Source of the DNA: a virus
Direction: 5' to 3' (one strand)
Length of the DNA stretch: 27,227 nucleotides
IMG/VR virus record: IMGVR_UViG_3300009104_000102
Span: 1-27,227 of that record
Position numbers and translations under genes: made by a program. A model generated the notes under the pieces. The model was not told where the DNA came from and made no database searches. It was given only the letters and a program-made list of their open reading frames with translations. Of this stretch, positions 15,676 through 25,484 are shown one piece after another. How positions within the stretch are numbered: position 1 is the first letter of the stretch; each line of letters begins with the position of its first letter.

Positions 15676-15760
15676 GAAAATTCTGTCGTCCTACGGATGG
15701 GTTAATAAATAGCGTAACGAATTCCCAATTTTCGGGGTCGACCTGCGTTAGAAATGAAAT

Positions 15761-15781
15761 TGAGAATGGTTCTCAAAATCA
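15761..15781 (+). promoter_or_regulatory. Fur-box-like operator 1
   Basis: The core TGAGAATGGTTCTCA is followed six bases later by ATCA. It agrees with the canonical 21-bp Fur operator at 15 of 21 positions. It lies 15 bases before a sigma54-like element. Confidence 0.5.
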
Positions 15782-15790
15782 AAAAGAGGG

Positions 15791-15806
15791 TGGCATGGGT
15801 CTTGCA
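15791..15806 (+). promoter_or_regulatory. Sigma54-like -24/-12 element, P1 rightward
   Basis: TGGCATGGGTCTTGCA has GG and GC dinucleotides ten bases apart and matches TGGCAYG-N4-TTGCA at all fixed positions. It faces P1 leftward across four bases (CCCC). Confidence 0.5.
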
Positions 15807-15810
15807 CCCC

Positions 15811-15826
15811 TGCAAGAAGCGTGCCA
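15811..15826 (-). promoter_or_regulatory. Sigma54-like -24/-12 element, P1 leftward
   Basis: On the minus strand this reads TGGCACGCTTCTTGCA, identical to the classical sigma54 consensus TGGCACG-N4-TTGCA. Together with P1 rightward it makes a 16-bp inverted repeat with three mismatches. Confidence 0.55.
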
Positions 15827-15836
15827 TACATCCCAT

Positions 15837-15857
15837 TGAGAATGGTTCTCATTATCA
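15837..15857 (+). promoter_or_regulatory. Fur-box-like operator 2
   Basis: The core TGAGAATGGTTCTCA continues with TTATCA, so two overlapping 7-1-7 palindromes can be drawn. It agrees with the canonical 21-bp Fur operator at 17 of 21 positions. Confidence 0.55.
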
Positions 15858-15899
15858 AAATGATAGTGATAGTAAGCGAAGCCACCTTTGATAGTATTT

Positions 15900-15920
15900 T
15901 GAGAATGATTCTCATTATCA
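15900..15920 (+). promoter_or_regulatory. Fur-box-like operator 3
   Basis: The core TGAGAATGATTCTCA is a perfect 7-1-7 palindrome and continues with TTATCA. It matches the canonical 21-bp Fur operator at 18 of 21 positions, the best of the four 21-mers. Confidence 0.6.
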
Positions 15921-15941
15921 ATATGGATCATGGGTACAAAT

Positions 15942-15962
15942 TGAGAATGACTCTCAATATCA
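15942..15962 (+). promoter_or_regulatory. Fur-box-like operator 4
   Basis: The core TGAGAATGACTCTCA is followed by ATATCA, 16 of 21 matches to the Fur operator. It covers the predicted start-site area of P2 leftward, where a repressor would block initiation. Confidence 0.5.
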
Positions 15963-15974
15963 GCCGTCCGTCCT

Positions 15975-15990
15975 TGCAAGATTCATGCCG
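15975..15990 (-). promoter_or_regulatory. Sigma54-like -24/-12 element, P2 leftward
   Basis: On the minus strand CGGCATGAATCTTGCA keeps the GG-N10-GC frame and the TTGCA -12 block. It stands back to back with P2 rightward, five bases apart. Confidence 0.45.
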
Positions 15991-15995
15991 TAGAA

Positions 15996-16011
15996 TGGCA
16001 TGATTATTGCA
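15996..16011 (+). promoter_or_regulatory. Sigma54-like -24/-12 element, P2 rightward
   Basis: TGGCATGATTATTGCA matches the sigma54 consensus at all fixed positions. With P2 leftward it forms an inverted repeat whose 15-base arms match at 13 positions. Confidence 0.5.
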
Positions 16012-16053
16012 TACAATAAAAAGGCGAACATATAACGAACAAATGCTTCTAAT

Positions 16054-16068
16054 TGATAATGATTATCA
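16054..16068 (+). promoter_or_regulatory. Near-canonical Fur box 5
   Basis: TGATAATGATTATCA is exactly the 7-1-7 Fur consensus (TGATAAT-N-ATTATCA). It lies about 45 bases downstream of P2 rightward. Confidence 0.65.
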
Positions 16069-16090
16069 GAATAGGGGTGTGCTGTAAGTT

Positions 16091-16522: not shown

Positions 16523-16678
16523 ATGGCAGACAAGCCAAACACAGCACCAAAGGAAGTAATACAGATTACAGAGGTTGAACCCCTAGAGAGTACAGAATTA
16601 AGTTCTCACGAATGGGGTAAGTTCCAAGGGGTTATAAAAGAAGAGGAAGAGTTCCTCGCACCCCATCTCTACTATTGA
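16523..16678 (+). CDS. Small acidic early protein
   Basis: This 51-residue acidic protein (many Glu, no Cys) ends in an aromatic pair. The ATG at 16523 follows GGAGG at a normal distance. The frame is open upstream to a GTG at 16385, which would give 97 residues, but the strong ribosome site and nearby promoter favour the short form. It is the first gene of the rightward early unit and its stop nearly touches the next ribosome site. I do not recognise a family. Small acidic early proteins often inhibit host enzymes; here that is only a possibility. Confidence 0.5.
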   Translation: MADKPNTAPKEVIQITEVEPLESTELSSHEWGKFQGVIKEEEEFLAPHLYY

Positions 16679-16689
16679 GAGGTAACATT

Positions 16690-17181
16690 ATGAAAGAAGT
16701 ACAGGACGTGGATCAATTAACAGAGTTTAGTATTGAACAGAAAAAAGCTAATATCCGTAAATGCGTAGATGATGGTGTACTCGATCCTCTGGTTGCGGAC
16801 GGTATCTTAAAAGATTTAGACAGGGCTATGAGTCGAGCAGGTTCTACCATGACTGACTTGGGAGATGGTTTGTACCTGTCAACTCCAGTCTGTAGAAATG
16901 AAGATGAAAAAGAGAAAAATATCCGACAGGGTAAACAGTGGATCAAAACCTATGTTCAAGGGGTTAAAGGGGGTTATGTTCTCTTGAAGTACACAGATGC
17001 CGAAGGGAATAAATACTCTTGTTACCCTCCCCTCGCTATGGTGTTGGGTATCCTAGACAAAGAGGACGAGATCAGGCAGACTCTCGCAGACAAGGCTGAA
17101 AAAGGCCATCTATTTAAAACGCTCTCAACGACCAGAGTAGAGCAATTACAACCAACTCCAAAGGAGACTATACTCGGCTAA
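16690..17181 (+). CDS. Hypothetical early protein
   Basis: This 163-residue protein starts at the ATG at 16690 after GAGAGG. The N-terminal half is helical and charged (IEQKKANIRKCVDDGVLDPL). A central segment has KGGYVLLKYTDAEGNKYSCY, beta-like. No catalytic motif or known family was recognised. It is the second and last gene of a short transcript closed by the hairpins at 17187-17270. Being in the first unit right of the control region suggests early expression. Confidence 0.6.
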   Translation: MKEVQDVDQLTEFSIEQKKANIRKCVDDGVLDPLVADGILKDLDRAMSRAGSTMTDLGDGLYLSTPVCRNEDEKEKNIRQGKQWIKTYVQGVKGGYVLLKYTDAEGNKYSCYPPLAMVLGILDKEDEIRQTLADKAEKGHLFKTLSTTRVEQLQPTPKETILG

Positions 17182-17186
17182 TAAAT

Positions 17187-17224
17187 CACCCTTTCTGGGG
17201 GACTTGGAAACCCCAGAAGGGGTG
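17187..17224 (+). terminator. Strong hairpin after the early unit
   Basis: CACCCTTTCTGGGG pairs with CCCCAGAAGGGGTG over 14 pairs (one G-U) around a ten-base loop, six bases after the stop. There is no T run, so it may protect the 3' end or assist the terminator that follows. Confidence 0.5.
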
Positions 17225-17231
17225 TTCAGTG

Positions 17232-17270
17232 AAGCCTGTCAGCCTAACGGCTGATGGGCTTTTCTTGTTT
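17232..17270 (+). terminator. Intrinsic terminator of the early unit
   Basis: TCAGCC-TAAC-GGCTGA is a perfect six-pair hairpin extended by AAGCC/GGCTT after a small internal loop, and is followed by TTTTCTTGTTTCTTCT. This is a textbook rho-independent terminator. Confidence 0.75.
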
Positions 17271-17278
17271 CTTCTAAT

Positions 17279-17295
17279 TGAGAATACTATTCTCA
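17279..17295 (+). promoter_or_regulatory. Fur-box-like palindrome with wider spacing
   Basis: TGAGAAT and ATTCTCA are separated by three bases (ACT) rather than one. The half-sites equal those of the operators at 15.7-16.0 kb. It lies between the early terminator and the next operon. Confidence 0.35.
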
Positions 17296-17301
17296 AAATG
17301 C

Positions 17302-17603: not shown

Positions 17604-17620
17604 CAAAAGGGGGTTACAGT

Positions 17621-17773
17621 ATGGGTATACAATTAGAGTGGTTTCCTTATTTCATTACGCTAGCCTTTGGGGTTACTGTACTATCAACATCCTTCCTATT
17701 CTTCTATGGCCTAGCTTGGCTCATCACATGGGTAATAGATAAATTCCCTATTCAGTCATGGAGGAGAAAATAA
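17621..17773 (+). CDS. Small membrane protein
   Basis: This 50-residue protein has a hydrophobic core over about residues 9-40 (FITLAFGVTVLSTSFLFFYG then LAWLITWVI) and a basic C-terminus (QSWRRK), suggesting one long or two short spans with the tail in the cytoplasm. A GGGGG stretch precedes the ATG. Its stop overlaps the start of the zinc-ribbon gene (TAATG), so the two are translationally coupled. The function is unknown. Confidence 0.55.
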   Translation: MGIQLEWFPYFITLAFGVTVLSTSFLFFYGLAWLITWVIDKFPIQSWRRK

Positions 17774-17991: not shown

Positions 17992-18363
17992 ATGACAACT
18001 AAAGCACAGTCCTTAGTAGGAGTAGAGGGCATACATAGCAGTAAAAAACTAGAGAACAACACATTTGAGGTGAAGTATAAGAATGGAGTCAGGGCTATAC
18101 GTTTACATTACACTAATATTGTTATCTTTTACCCTGATGGGACTACACATATTAATTCTGGAGGATGGCTGACTCGTACCACTAAAGACAGGATTAATAA
18201 GTACTGCGGATTCATTAAGGTATGGCAAGAGAAAGGTGAATGGTATGTAGCAAACAATACCTTTGAATTCCCTGTACACTTTGCTGATTGGATGATGTTC
18301 AGTAAGACAGGAGAACATATTGGATGTATCATACCACTCAAGTACCCATGTGTCAGACAATAG
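17992..18363 (+). CDS. Conserved phage protein of unknown function
   Basis: This 123-residue protein carries a pattern I recognise from many phages of varied hosts: a gene-specific strand with RAIRLHYTNIVIFYPDGT, then NSGGWLTRTTKDRINKY, and VWQEKGEWYV. No function has been assigned to the family as far as I know. It begins directly after the zinc-ribbon stop, with AAGGAGG before the ATG. The end is marked by two Cys in the last 15 residues. It probably folds as a small beta-rich domain. Confidence 0.6.
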   Translation: MTTKAQSLVGVEGIHSSKKLENNTFEVKYKNGVRAIRLHYTNIVIFYPDGTTHINSGGWLTRTTKDRINKYCGFIKVWQEKGEWYVANNTFEFPVHFADWMMFSKTGEHIGCIIPLKYPCVRQ

Positions 18364-18395
18364 AATACGATGCCGAAAATAAATTCATTTTTCGC

Positions 18396-18424
18396 TTGAC
18401 ATTGGTTTTTAAACGTGTTAGCAT
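18396..18424 (+). promoter_or_regulatory. Sigma70 promoter
   Basis: TTGACA (18396-18401), a 17-base spacer and TAGCAT (18419-18424). The start site would be near 18431, 24 bases before the ATG at 18455. It would drive the run of genes through the recombination module. Confidence 0.55.
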
Positions 18425-18454
18425 GGTTGTACTAAAATTTAGAAAGAAAATTTC

Positions 18455-18886
18455 ATGCACAGATTCGAGATATTACTGTACGAGTGGAAGGCTTGGAAGA
18501 AGAGTGGTTGGATAAAGAAGTTCTTAGGGATGGGTAATCATTGGCCTGATGCAGAGGAGCTTAATGAATTTAACAATTCGGATACAGCGAGGTCGGTACA
18601 AATGTCTGATAAAGATTTAATAGATAAAGCGAGAGGTGTGTACAATTCTAGGTTTAATTCTAATGGTGGCAACACTAAGGGTAACTTATTCCCTGTCAAA
18701 GTTTATGACAAGCATGGTGTACTCATTAAGACTATTAGCGTAGAAGAATTAAAAGAACATAACAACGTGAACTTTAAGAAGCAAGGGAACTGGATGTCTA
18801 AAGTCAAGCATAAGAAGAGAACAGACCCAGTTAAAATAGACGATATTATTAAAGAAATAGAGAAGGAGGAGCGAGGGGATGAATGA
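18455..18886 (+). CDS. Hypothetical basic protein
   Basis: This 143-residue protein is rich in Lys and Asn. It starts with an amphipathic MHRFEILLYEWKAWKKSGW segment and has a C-terminal Lys/Glu helix. The part VKVYDKHGVLIKTISVEELKE resembles short domains in phage proteins that bind nucleic acid, but no firm family is recognised. The ribosome site is weak (AGAAAG). The end overlaps the next start by eight bases. It is the first gene after the promoter at 18396. Confidence 0.5.
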   Translation: MHRFEILLYEWKAWKKSGWIKKFLGMGNHWPDAEELNEFNNSDTARSVQMSDKDLIDKARGVYNSRFNSNGGNTKGNLFPVKVYDKHGVLIKTISVEELKEHNNVNFKKQGNWMSKVKHKKRTDPVKIDDIIKEIEKEERGDE

Positions 18887-22758: not shown

Positions 22759-24084
22759 ATGGCACTAGATATAACGACTACCCCTGCGGTGTTTACAGAT
22801 AGAGAAGTTGAACGCTCGATGCTGAGTGCGATGCTAAACAGTAAACAAGATACCGCTTTTATCTTAGACAGGCTTAATGTAGACGACTTCTACTTTAATC
22901 ACCATCGTACTATATACCAGACCTGTAAAGATACATTTGGTTTGGGTGGTGAAATGGACTACATGACGGTGCGTTCTCAATTTAATACGAACCCTAGAGT
23001 ATCAGACTTACTGGATGAGATAAGACAGATACCGCAGTGGGATGTAAACAGAGAACAAGGCTGTAAGATACTAAAAGAATTTTCATCCAAGAGACAAGTA
23101 GCATACCTCTGTAATGAAGCACTACATAAGCTGACTGAGAATAAAGAGTCCGATGATGTAATACAGTTATTACAAAGTAAGTCTACTGGGATACTACAAG
23201 CTAGGAATTTTGTCTTTAATAAATCTGCTGTATCACCTACTGAAGAATGGGTCGGTGAGATACAAGATGAGATGGAATTAGGAGAGCGTCCTGCTGATGA
23301 GTATGACGGATACCCTGTAGGTATGCCTATGCTTGATGAGAAGATGAAGGGGCTACAGGATATTAATGTTATCTCTGCTCCTACTGGGCATGGCAAATCT
23401 ATGCTTGCATTGAATTGGGTAGTAAACATTTCTATGCAGGATAAATTTCCAGATCGCATACTCTACATCAATTACGAAATGAATCGTAAACAACTGGCAC
23501 GTAGAGTATTCTCTATTGCATCAGGTGTAACCTATAACGAAATATATAACAGGAGATTTCTGAATAGAGAAAATGCCGATGCTTATAACTTGGCACGTAT
23601 TCGTCTACTGGAGAGAAAGAATCTCATACTCACTAACAACGAACCTAAAACATTAGCCGTAACAATGGCACTGATACAAGAGCACGTAACCTGTAATAAA
23701 GTGAGCATTGTCGTTATAGATCATCTTGGAGAAATAGCCTCCGAGAAAGATGAGTATGCTATGGATCATTGGATGAAACTACAGAAGTACGTTAAGGAAT
23801 TAAAGAATGTTACGACTAGACTTGGGGTAAGACTTATAGTAGTAGCCCAACAAAACAGGGAAGGCTATAACAATGGCAGGGGTCAGGCAGGTGGGCTAGG
23901 TAGGGTAGCAGGTACACTCGAATTAAGTAGGATATGTGATTGCTTTATTAATATGTACCACACTAGAGAAGGTGATAAAATTATCTCACTAGAGAAAAAC
24001 CGTAACGGTGAGATATGCAAATTTAAAATCAACTTTGATGGAGCAAGACAAATCATTACACTGGAAGAGGAGGTACATGAATGA
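22759..24084 (+). CDS. DnaB-type replicative helicase
   Basis: This 441-residue protein has a DnaB N-terminal domain (residues 13-60, DREVERSMLSAMLN and the FYFNHHRTIYQ signature) and a RecA-like motor. Walker A is APTGHGKS (residues 207-214), the catalytic Glu is in YINYEMN (about 240), Walker B is VSIVVIDHLGE (Asp321), and the sensor Gln is in VVAQQNREG (364-365). It would unwind the fork as a hexamer. No separate primase or helicase loader is visible in the window. GAGGAG precedes the ATG at 22759. Confidence 0.88.
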   Translation: MALDITTTPAVFTDREVERSMLSAMLNSKQDTAFILDRLNVDDFYFNHHRTIYQTCKDTFGLGGEMDYMTVRSQFNTNPRVSDLLDEIRQIPQWDVNREQGCKILKEFSSKRQVAYLCNEALHKLTENKESDDVIQLLQSKSTGILQARNFVFNKSAVSPTEEWVGEIQDEMELGERPADEYDGYPVGMPMLDEKMKGLQDINVISAPTGHGKSMLALNWVVNISMQDKFPDRILYINYEMNRKQLARRVFSIASGVTYNEIYNRRFLNRENADAYNLARIRLLERKNLILTNNEPKTLAVTMALIQEHVTCNKVSIVVIDHLGEIASEKDEYAMDHWMKLQKYVKELKNVTTRLGVRLIVVAQQNREGYNNGRGQAGGLGRVAGTLELSRICDCFINMYHTREGDKIISLEKNRNGEICKFKINFDGARQIITLEEEVHE

Positions 24085-24317
24085 GCCTAGAATACGTTAT
24101 CGCTAGACCATGTGAAGAGTGTGGGAAAAAAGCACACCATAAACATGGACTGCAATACCTGATGGAAGAGGATACACAACAAGAGGGTAAGGGTACAACT
24201 AAGATATTTAATTCCCGAAATGAAGCAACTAGATGGATTAAGACCAGTATACCTAAGACATTATGGAAAGAAATTATGGTTATCCCATTATCAGAAGTCC
24301 CAGAATGGGACGGATAA
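24081..24317 (+). CDS. Small protein with CxxC-HxxxH motif
   Basis: This 78-residue protein overlaps the helicase stop by four bases (ATGA), so it is coupled to it. Near the N-terminus are CEECG (residues 11-15) and two to three His (KAHHKHG), a plausible zinc site. The rest is charged. I do not recognise a family. Being coupled to the helicase, a replication accessory role is conceivable but unproven. Confidence 0.5.
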   Translation: MSLEYVIARPCEECGKKAHHKHGLQYLMEEDTQQEGKGTTKIFNSRNEATRWIKTSIPKTLWKEIMVIPLSEVPEWDG

Positions 24318-24932
24318 ATTAGATGATAGTAGTCAGGGCAGGGGGGTTGGGTTATAAACTATAGGTTTTCCTTCATTTTTCCTATAGCGGACTTACCAAC
24401 AGCAGTTGAATCTGTACACCCCCTGCTTATCTTTAGTTGTCTGGAGGGCTGACTAGACATTAAACATACTGTAACCCAGTGCGGTGGGGTTTAGTTCGCT
24501 AACACATATTATTATTTTACAGAAGGAGCCGTCAAATCTGAATTAAATGGTTCAATAAACCTAGCATCCTTATTGCGAGACCATAGGCATGATGGTCTAT
24601 AAAATATCTACCCCGAAGGGGCAGGGGTTTATGCCAAGCCCCACTTATTTAACAGGAAGTGCGTAGTATCTCCTGTGATGGCAGGAACCATGCAGACAGT
24701 CTGCCAAACGAAAAAACGTATGTCCTGTATTACTAATAGTGTGCCTCCTGTTGGCACATAGAGAAACTATTAGCAGTATGAAAGACGGACTACGCACTGG
24801 ACAGTGTAGCAGGTTTTTGGTTTTGTTTTTCCTGCTACGGCATTGAAACCGTCAAAGGATGTAAAGTCTGTGAGTGCTCCTGTACCCAGAATGTATCATA
24901 GGAACTGGGTGCAGGGGTACTCCTTTTTAATC
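24318..24932 (+). ncRNA. Candidate large structured noncoding RNA
   Basis: About 615 bases contain no credible gene but many inverted repeats. GCAGGGGG (24338) pairs with CCCCCTGC (24419). CTATAGG (24359) pairs with CCTATAG (24381). AGACCAT (24578) pairs with ATGGTCT (24592). CCCC-GAA-GGGG stands at 24611. A ten-pair closing stem AGTGCGTAGT/ACTACGCACT (24658-24667 with 24789-24798) encloses three hairpins: TCCTG/CAGGA, GCAGA/TCTGC, and CTAATAG/CTATTAG stacked on TGTGCC/GGCACA. GTAGCAGG/CCTGCTAC (24806, 24831) has a U-rich loop. The block ends in a terminator. Size and branching recall the phage RNAs GOLLD and ROOL; identity with them is not established. The plus strand is chosen because of the terminator and flanking genes. 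Confidence 0.6.
24872..24928 (+). terminator. Intrinsic terminator ending the structured RNA
   Basis: GAGTGCTCCTGTACCCAG (24872-24889) pairs with 24905-24922 over 18 continuous pairs, three of them G-U, with a 15-base loop, followed by CTTTTT. It separates the RNA region from the resolvase gene. Confidence 0.65.
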
Positions 24933-24942
24933 TACCACTAAT

Positions 24943-24982
24943 AGGACATTTGCAGTACCGATAATGTCCTTTGACAAAAGGA
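24943..24982 (+). promoter_or_regulatory. Two exclusive hairpins at the resolvase ribosome site
   Basis: AGGACATT (24943-24950) pairs with AATGTCCT (24963-24970). Bases 24967-24972 (TCCTTT) can instead pair with AAAGGA (24977-24982), the Shine-Dalgarno of the gene starting at 24990. The first hairpin would expose the ribosome site and the second would hide it. No ligand or protein is known. Confidence 0.4.
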
Positions 24983-24989
24983 TACAACT

Positions 24990-25484
24990 ATGGGCGGTAA
25001 ATCAAGTAGAGACAAAGGACAAAGAGGGGAAAGAGAAGTCTGTAAGATATTATCTGAGCGACTTAACTTAGATGTGACCAGAGAACTAGGTGCCTCTAGG
25101 GACGGTGGTTGTGATATTAAAGTAACGATTGCAGAAATGAACTACTTTTTTGAAGTTAAACTTTACAGAAAAGTAACCCAGAGCCTTGTCCATGATTGGT
25201 GGATACAGGCATGGGAACAAGCCCAATCAGGCGAAAAAACAGGGTTGCTTAATGTAGTGCCTGTACTGATTTACAGGCAAAGCCATTGGAAAGAATGGGA
25301 GTGTGTTGTGCCTTTGAGTTGGATGATTTGGATGCTGGAGTGCAGTAATAAACTAAAAGCAAGAGAACGTAAAAATTATGAAAAAATTACTATGGGATTC
25401 AACTCACTTACTGATATTATCCTCATAGGTAAATCACACAAACACGTCAGCGAAGGCAAAATGGACATTCTAATGGAGAAGTAA
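24990..25484 (+). CDS. Hjc-like Holliday junction resolvase
   Basis: This 164-residue protein starts KGQRGEREVCKILSERL (Glu14), then LGASRDGGCDIKV (Asp42) and YFFEVKLYRK (Glu55, Lys57), the PD-(D/E)XK core of archaeal-Hjc-like and phage resolvases. It would cut four-way junctions left by the recombination system or by replication, before packaging. The ATG at 24990 has AAAGGA seven bases upstream within a switchable hairpin. The last 60 residues are an extension beyond the nuclease core with many Lys/Ser and no recognised motif. Confidence 0.72.
   Translation: MGGKSSRDKGQRGEREVCKILSERLNLDVTRELGASRDGGCDIKVTIAEMNYFFEVKLYRKVTQSLVHDWWIQAWEQAQSGEKTGLLNVVPVLIYRQSHWKEWECVVPLSWMIWMLECSNKLKARERKNYEKITMGFNSLTDIILIGKSHKHVSEGKMDILMEK

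Follow-up and report, generated by a model that had tools for sequence, protein, structure and literature searches.

A gene-free element, predicted to fold, between replication genes of an uncultured podovirus-like phage: a candidate counterpart of structured RNAs in related phages

A gene-free element of roughly 600 bases, situated between two DNA-replication genes of an uncultured phage, is best explained as this lineage's divergent, relocated counterpart of structured RNAs carried by related phages, probably acting post-transcriptionally. This explanation is held tentatively, at slightly less than an even chance. The window (i.e. the whole stretch of DNA analysed, 27,227 nucleotides) derives from a fragment of a podovirus-like phage, with structural genes on the minus strand of its left half and early genes on the plus strand of its right half.

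Results

Location, coding potential and searches against known RNAs

The element follows a 78-aa gene which, in relatives, usually abuts the nuclease gene (Table 1). A preliminary description of this DNA had reported about 615 bases without a credible gene, and this was borne out. No ORF of ≥60 aa lies inside 24318-24935, a PHROG search with the longest stop-free stretches returned nothing below E 0.17, and these stretches had no convincing likeness to the proteins of relatives. No hidden gene, for which the description had left room, and no decayed gene was detected in these comparisons. No sigma-70 promoter was found on the plus strand near the element.

Covariance models of Rfam gave no match to the element region at the gathering threshold or at E≤10, and by this measure the element belongs to no Rfam family. 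ARAGORN and Rfam likewise lent no support to group I intron and tRNA-like motifs considered by eye, which were dropped. The 27-kb window, which may be part of an incomplete contig, contains no tRNA.

Table 1. Positions of the element, its parts and associated features in the window and in related contigs.
Feature	Sequence	Position	Strand	Remarks
78-aa gene, function unknown	window	24081..24317	+	3' of DnaB-like helicase gene
Non-coding structured element (predicted)	window	24318..24935	+	from stop of 78-aa gene to end of terminator
5' domain, three-way junction	window	24336..24428	+	closing stem GGGCAGGGGG/CCCCCTGCTT
Central domain	window	24468..24805	+	closed by long-range helix ACTGT-aac-CCAGTGCG / CGCACTGG-ACAGT
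Ten-pair stem AGTGCGTAGT/ACTACGCACT and enclosed region	window	24658..24798	+	rivals 13-pair helix
Core-like stretch TCTCCTGTGATGGCAGGAACCATGCAGACAG	window	24669..24699	+	likeness to TCTCCTTAGAGCCAGACCCATGCTGACAG of family A
Hairpin CTAATAGT/ACTATTAG	window	24733..24773	+	inner stem TGTGCC/GGCACA; pair probability ~0.9
Hairpin GTAGCAGG/CCTGCTAC	window	24806..24838	+	U-rich 17-nt loop; pair probability 0.94
Intrinsic terminator (predicted)	window	24872..24928	+	18-pair stem, then CTTTTT
Palindrome AGGACATT-TGCAGTACCGAT-AATGTCCT	window	24943..24970	+	just 3' of element
PDDEXK / RusA-like resolvase-type nuclease gene	window	24990..25484	+	
Ribosome-binding site and start codon of 50-aa membrane-protein gene, GGGTTACAGTATG	window	17611..17623	+	
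Start of gene 17992, GACAACTAAAG	window	17994..18004	+	
Site A	window	18364..18454	+	equivalent place of RNA in two of the nearest relatives
RNA B	L061	1084-1324		~250 nt; z -4.6
RNA B	L058	6178-6428	-	~250 nt; z -3.9
Family A copy	L060	1063-1259		
Family A copy	L059	846-1039		
Family A copy	L052	5515-5713		
Family A copy	L097	10456-10654		
Family A copy	L073	3060-3248		
Family A copy	L048	8455-8680	-	
Family A copy	L087	1-125		partial
Site A RNA	G008, G009, G011, G013, G016, G020, G023, G024, G026			
Palindrome site	L048	5341		
Palindrome site	L050	7405		
Palindrome site	L052	5728		
Palindrome site	L060	1274		
Palindrome site	L073	3438		
Palindrome site	L057, L065, L071			

Predicted folding of the element

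The number and nesting of inverted repeats had been taken as signs of a folded RNA, and the element does fold better than chance. The plus strand gave an MFE of -207.1 kcal/mol as compared to a shuffle mean of -173.9 (z -4.8; 0/150 shuffles as low), a smaller set of 20 shuffles gave z -6.0, and leaving out the terminator gave z -3.9 (0/100 shuffles as low). The minus strand folded nearly as well (z -3.8), indicating that strand asymmetry is mostly due to base composition; asymmetry was dropped as evidence for an RNA. Similar values were obtained for two further non-coding regions of this phage (15509-16384 and 17182-17757, both z -4.6), so strong folding is not unique to the element.

The inverted repeats lie at the places first reported, and the number of perfect repeats of ≥8 bp is modest (i.e. 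four, against a shuffle mean of 1.5 and a maximum of 5). The ten-pair stem that had been singled out (24658-24667/24789-24798) is present with ten perfect pairs and is near chance, 12.5% of shuffles containing a perfect repeat of ≥10 bp. It is a minor state with a pairing probability of only ~25%, because a favoured helix of 13 pairs with a 3-nt bulge (24468-24483/24793-24805; pairing probability ~70%) takes the same 3' strand. Positions 24789-24800 are contested by these two long helices, and the ten-pair stem is thus weak evidence for the proposed fold.

In the 5' domain, the closing stem and the inner stems (GTTGG/CCAAC, CTATAGG/CCTATAG and GCAG/CTGT) have pair probabilities of 0.94-1.0, and the enclosing block 24318-24466 gave z -3.1. 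The block spanning the central domain (24466-24806) gave z -4.35 (0/100 shuffles). The stem at the 3' end (24872-24889/24905-24922) has 18 pairs, including three G-U, with a pair probability of 1.0; this block gave z -5.4 and was also picked up by a terminator scan. With its stable, G+C-rich stem and the U-run of CTTTTT, this block has the make-up of a good intrinsic terminator, in line with the 18-pair terminator of the preliminary description.

Copies of the element and its site in relatives

Relatives were collected by helicase and nuclease searches, giving 27 viral contigs. Besides the window, the element is present only in L002 and L003, with no difference within the element, and both represent the window's own phage (2 mismatches in 5.8 kb and none in 2.6 kb). 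It is known in one sequence version only. In the other relatives whose contigs show both genes, the 78-aa gene runs directly up to the nuclease gene or a short, unrelated spacer lies between them, such as ~85 nt with a terminator-like hairpin in L010 or a 63-aa ORF in L013. The related phage contigs in which the same intergenic region was to be sought thus lack it, apart from the two identical same-phage copies, so the element was apparently gained in the window lineage or lost in the relatives.

Wider searches gave the same picture. No homologue was detected by blastn against phages and plasmids, multi-pattern queries built from translations of parts of the element returned the same phage only, and a helicase search in bacterial genomes yielded no prophage relative. 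When the ten-pair stem was searched for in IMG/VR as a gapped pattern, the foreign contigs that matched were all attributed to chance, as were three matches of an 18-mer in bacterial genomes.

An unlisted RNA family in relatives

The palindrome at 24943-24970 led to relatives in which it trails a conserved non-coding stretch, termed family A. These stretches are ~200 nt long, lie in the early region and are predicted to form a closing stem (P1), a hairpin (P2), a further stem (P3) and a pseudoknot in which the P2 loop (UGCUGRC) pairs with the 3' end (GYCAGCA). In an alignment of the seven distinct sequences (Table 1), 95.8% of pair cells were paired and double changes occurred in eight pairs (15 cells). 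The covariation score was 0.250, with 0/500 shuffles as high, and only 34–44% of cells were paired when partners were slid by 1–3 columns; part of the structure had been fitted by eye to the same alignment, which somewhat favours these figures, and the double changes are plain. Rfam gave no match to the family A loci. On this comparative evidence, family A is an unlisted structured RNA family with strong covariation and a pseudoknot. Closing-stem covariation, by which the preliminary description proposed to judge the element, is present in a possibly related family located elsewhere in the relatives.

Family A copies directly precede ribosome-binding sites, and a conserved CUCUCCUU could pair with Shine-Dalgarno sequences. 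The genes 3' of these RNAs differ between copies. In L057, a family A tail plus palindrome occurs twice in tandem (1-61 and 437-595), with another small gene after each copy, which looks like duplication of a cassette made of RNA and palindrome.

Most family A copies are followed by the 28-nt palindrome that also lies next to the element. This palindrome (AGGACATTTGYRGTACYGATRATGTCCT) is strongly conserved, intergenic and usually present once per contig of the phage group, at varied places. Its centre is inverted relative to a common flank in L019-L021, and L097 has the site without the palindrome. An origin, an operator or a tiny mobile palindrome are candidate identities.

RNA B and the shared early-region site

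Two (L061 and L058) of the three nearest relatives (86–88% helicase identity) carry a different RNA, termed RNA B; the third is a fragment that ends short of the site. The closing stem of RNA B is TGAGGACTCTAGTTAC/GTAGCTAGAGTTCTCA in one sequence and TGGGAGTGTTAGTCAC/GTGACTAACATTCCCA in the other, with 16/16 pairs kept and five double changes between the two. A sigma-70-like promoter (TTGACT-N17-TATAAT) lies just upstream in L061, and RNA B is not listed in Rfam.

Family A and RNA B occupy the same place (site A), flanked by the homologues of window genes 17992 and 18879 and ~6 kb upstream of the element. An RNA was present at site A in nine of the helicase-recovered contigs, some of which are near-identical to each other. 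In the window phage, the 17992–18879 interval contains only a promoter-like TTGACA-N17-TAGCAT (18396-18424) and a gene, and no structured RNA at site A. A site A RNA and an element at the nuclease site were mutually exclusive in the material seen, and this is the main reason for regarding the element as the counterpart of the site A RNAs.

Comparison of the element with family A and RNA B

The core of family A (consensus UCUCCU...CCCAUGCUGRCAG) lies inside the closing stem P1. A profile of the 53 most conserved columns of family A scored 26.2 at 24669-24699, a post hoc result reached by 1/2000 shuffles and the highest score in the window on either strand. The 31-base core-like stretch is enclosed directly by the ten-pair stem, a position matching that of the family A core within P1; the ten-pair stem would be P1 if the two were homologous. 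Two other comparisons were negative: two covariance models of family A (R1 and R3) gave no meaningful match to the element, and 12-mers common to both were not above the level of shuffles. For the pseudoknot, a profile of its 3' strand in family A was at chance level in the element (12% of shuffles), although visual inspection shows that TGCAGAC (24691-24697) might pair with GTCTGTG (24864-24870). Homology of the element to family A is suggested by the core, and rated somewhat less probable than its absence. The element resembles family A in its early-region location, in being followed, like most copies, by the same palindrome and in the 31-base core, but differs in that family A is ~200 nt long, occupies another genome site, has no terminator and yields covariance models that miss the element.

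A profile of RNA B did not match the element, and matching hairpins noted by eye were dropped because this search found no homology. RNA B is like the element in being a single structured RNA of the early region, with a similar z, in phages near the window. In contrast, it is ~250 nt long, has its own sigma-70-like promoter, lies at another site and has no sequence similarity to the element.

Control region of the window phage

At least six Fur-box-like palindromes (TTGAGAATGRTTCTCAWTATCA) were observed at 15755-16070 and 17279-17297 of the window, including exact sites at 15900 (TGAGAATGATTCTCA) and 16054 (TGATAATGATTATCA). They lie where structural and early genes diverge, in the control region separating the two groups. 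Similar sites occur in L058 and L061, two near relatives, and are absent from the more distant relatives scanned. These sites may reflect a response of the phage to host iron status or be operators of a phage repressor. Two consecutive terminator-like hairpins (17190-17275) follow gene 16675-17181, and the surrounding 240 nt gave z ~-6.

Discussion

A folded, terminated non-coding transcript, as first proposed, is the best reading of the element (z -4.8 and terminator), with the transcript itself, its link to the site A RNAs and a role in regulation all presumed. Transcription of the plus strand would occur by read-through from the early operon, no promoter of its own being visible, and the terminator would give the RNA a defined 3' end. 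The element would correspond, in divergent and relocated form, to the site A RNAs of relatives, and would most likely act as an RNA in post-transcriptional regulation.

It could do so, for instance, by base-pairing at the translation starts of early genes 17622 and 17992. Element positions 24465-24477 are perfectly complementary over 13 nt to 17611-17623 (found post hoc; ~1% of shuffles), and 24431-24441 over 11 nt to 17994-18004 (also post hoc). Two start complements of ≥11 nt occurred in 1.4% of shuffles and in 2.8% of other phage segments, values that are uncorrected for looking. Start-codon pairing of a like kind was not seen for RNA B, and the antisense route is only a lead.

The most serious rival, rated unlikely, is a cis-acting leader in which an attenuator terminator sets the transcription of the helicase operon into the nuclease gene. 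The terminator lies ~60 nt before the nuclease start, all genes run in the same direction, the contest for 24789-24800 is switch-like, and the family A RNAs with their CUCUCCUU directly precede ribosome-binding sites. Competing helices and a terminator before a gene are features of attenuators and structured leaders, but no antiterminator (i.e. no pairing with the terminator arms, by eye), leader peptide or known ligand-binding motif was seen in the element. Moreover, the same nuclease gene is present in relatives that have no leader before it, and the genes preceded by family A RNAs differ.

Somewhat less probable still is an ordinary spacer left by gene turnover, in which a decayed insert is ended by a terminator and the repeats have no further function. 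The variability of the nuclease site, where relatives have no spacer, the ~85-nt hairpin spacer or the 63-aa ORF, would fit such a spacer, as would the good folding of other spacers of this phage and its relatives and the near-chance ten-pair stem. However, z is -3.9 even without the terminator, no trace of a decayed gene was found, and 615 bases have been retained amid a compact gene order.

That the repeats act as DNA (i.e. as a replication origin, single-strand initiation site or operator array) is improbable. The folding of the minus strand, the adjoining helicase and recombination genes and the adjacent conserved palindrome, usually single per genome, are consistent with such a role, but GC skew, which turns near 16 kb with gene direction, is unremarkable at 24.3 kb, the element contains no iterons, and the 18-pair stem, in which three pairs are G-U, is followed by a U-run and looks like a terminator acting as RNA.

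GOLLD and ROOL, to whose size class the element had been assigned, are phage-borne, multibranched RNAs of several hundred nucleotides and of unknown function, commonly found close to tRNA islands of phages or prophages, and homo-oligomeric cage contacts are a feature of both (PMC12286853). The assignment stands as to length only, and the element shares the phage location and, in its predicted fold, the multibranched form, but a divergent GOLLD or ROOL is extremely unlikely, as their Rfam models gave no score and the window has no tRNA island.

The counterpart explanation places the element in a wider setting, in which it probably belongs to a series of structured RNAs that change fast within this phage group. 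A stronger version, in which the group keeps a dedicated, very fast-evolving RNA gene that stays folded and varies among close relatives in sequence, size (200 to 600 nt) and position, and in which the element is the largest form known and represents a new class of large phage RNAs, is conceivable at well below an even chance. GOLLD and ROOL are without known function, and comparable large phage RNA systems are few. The phage group studied here seems to maintain a folded early-region RNA, represented by two covarying, unlisted families and the larger candidate of the window. If these are counterparts, they would form a natural series for finding the helices that are kept, and hence what such RNAs do.
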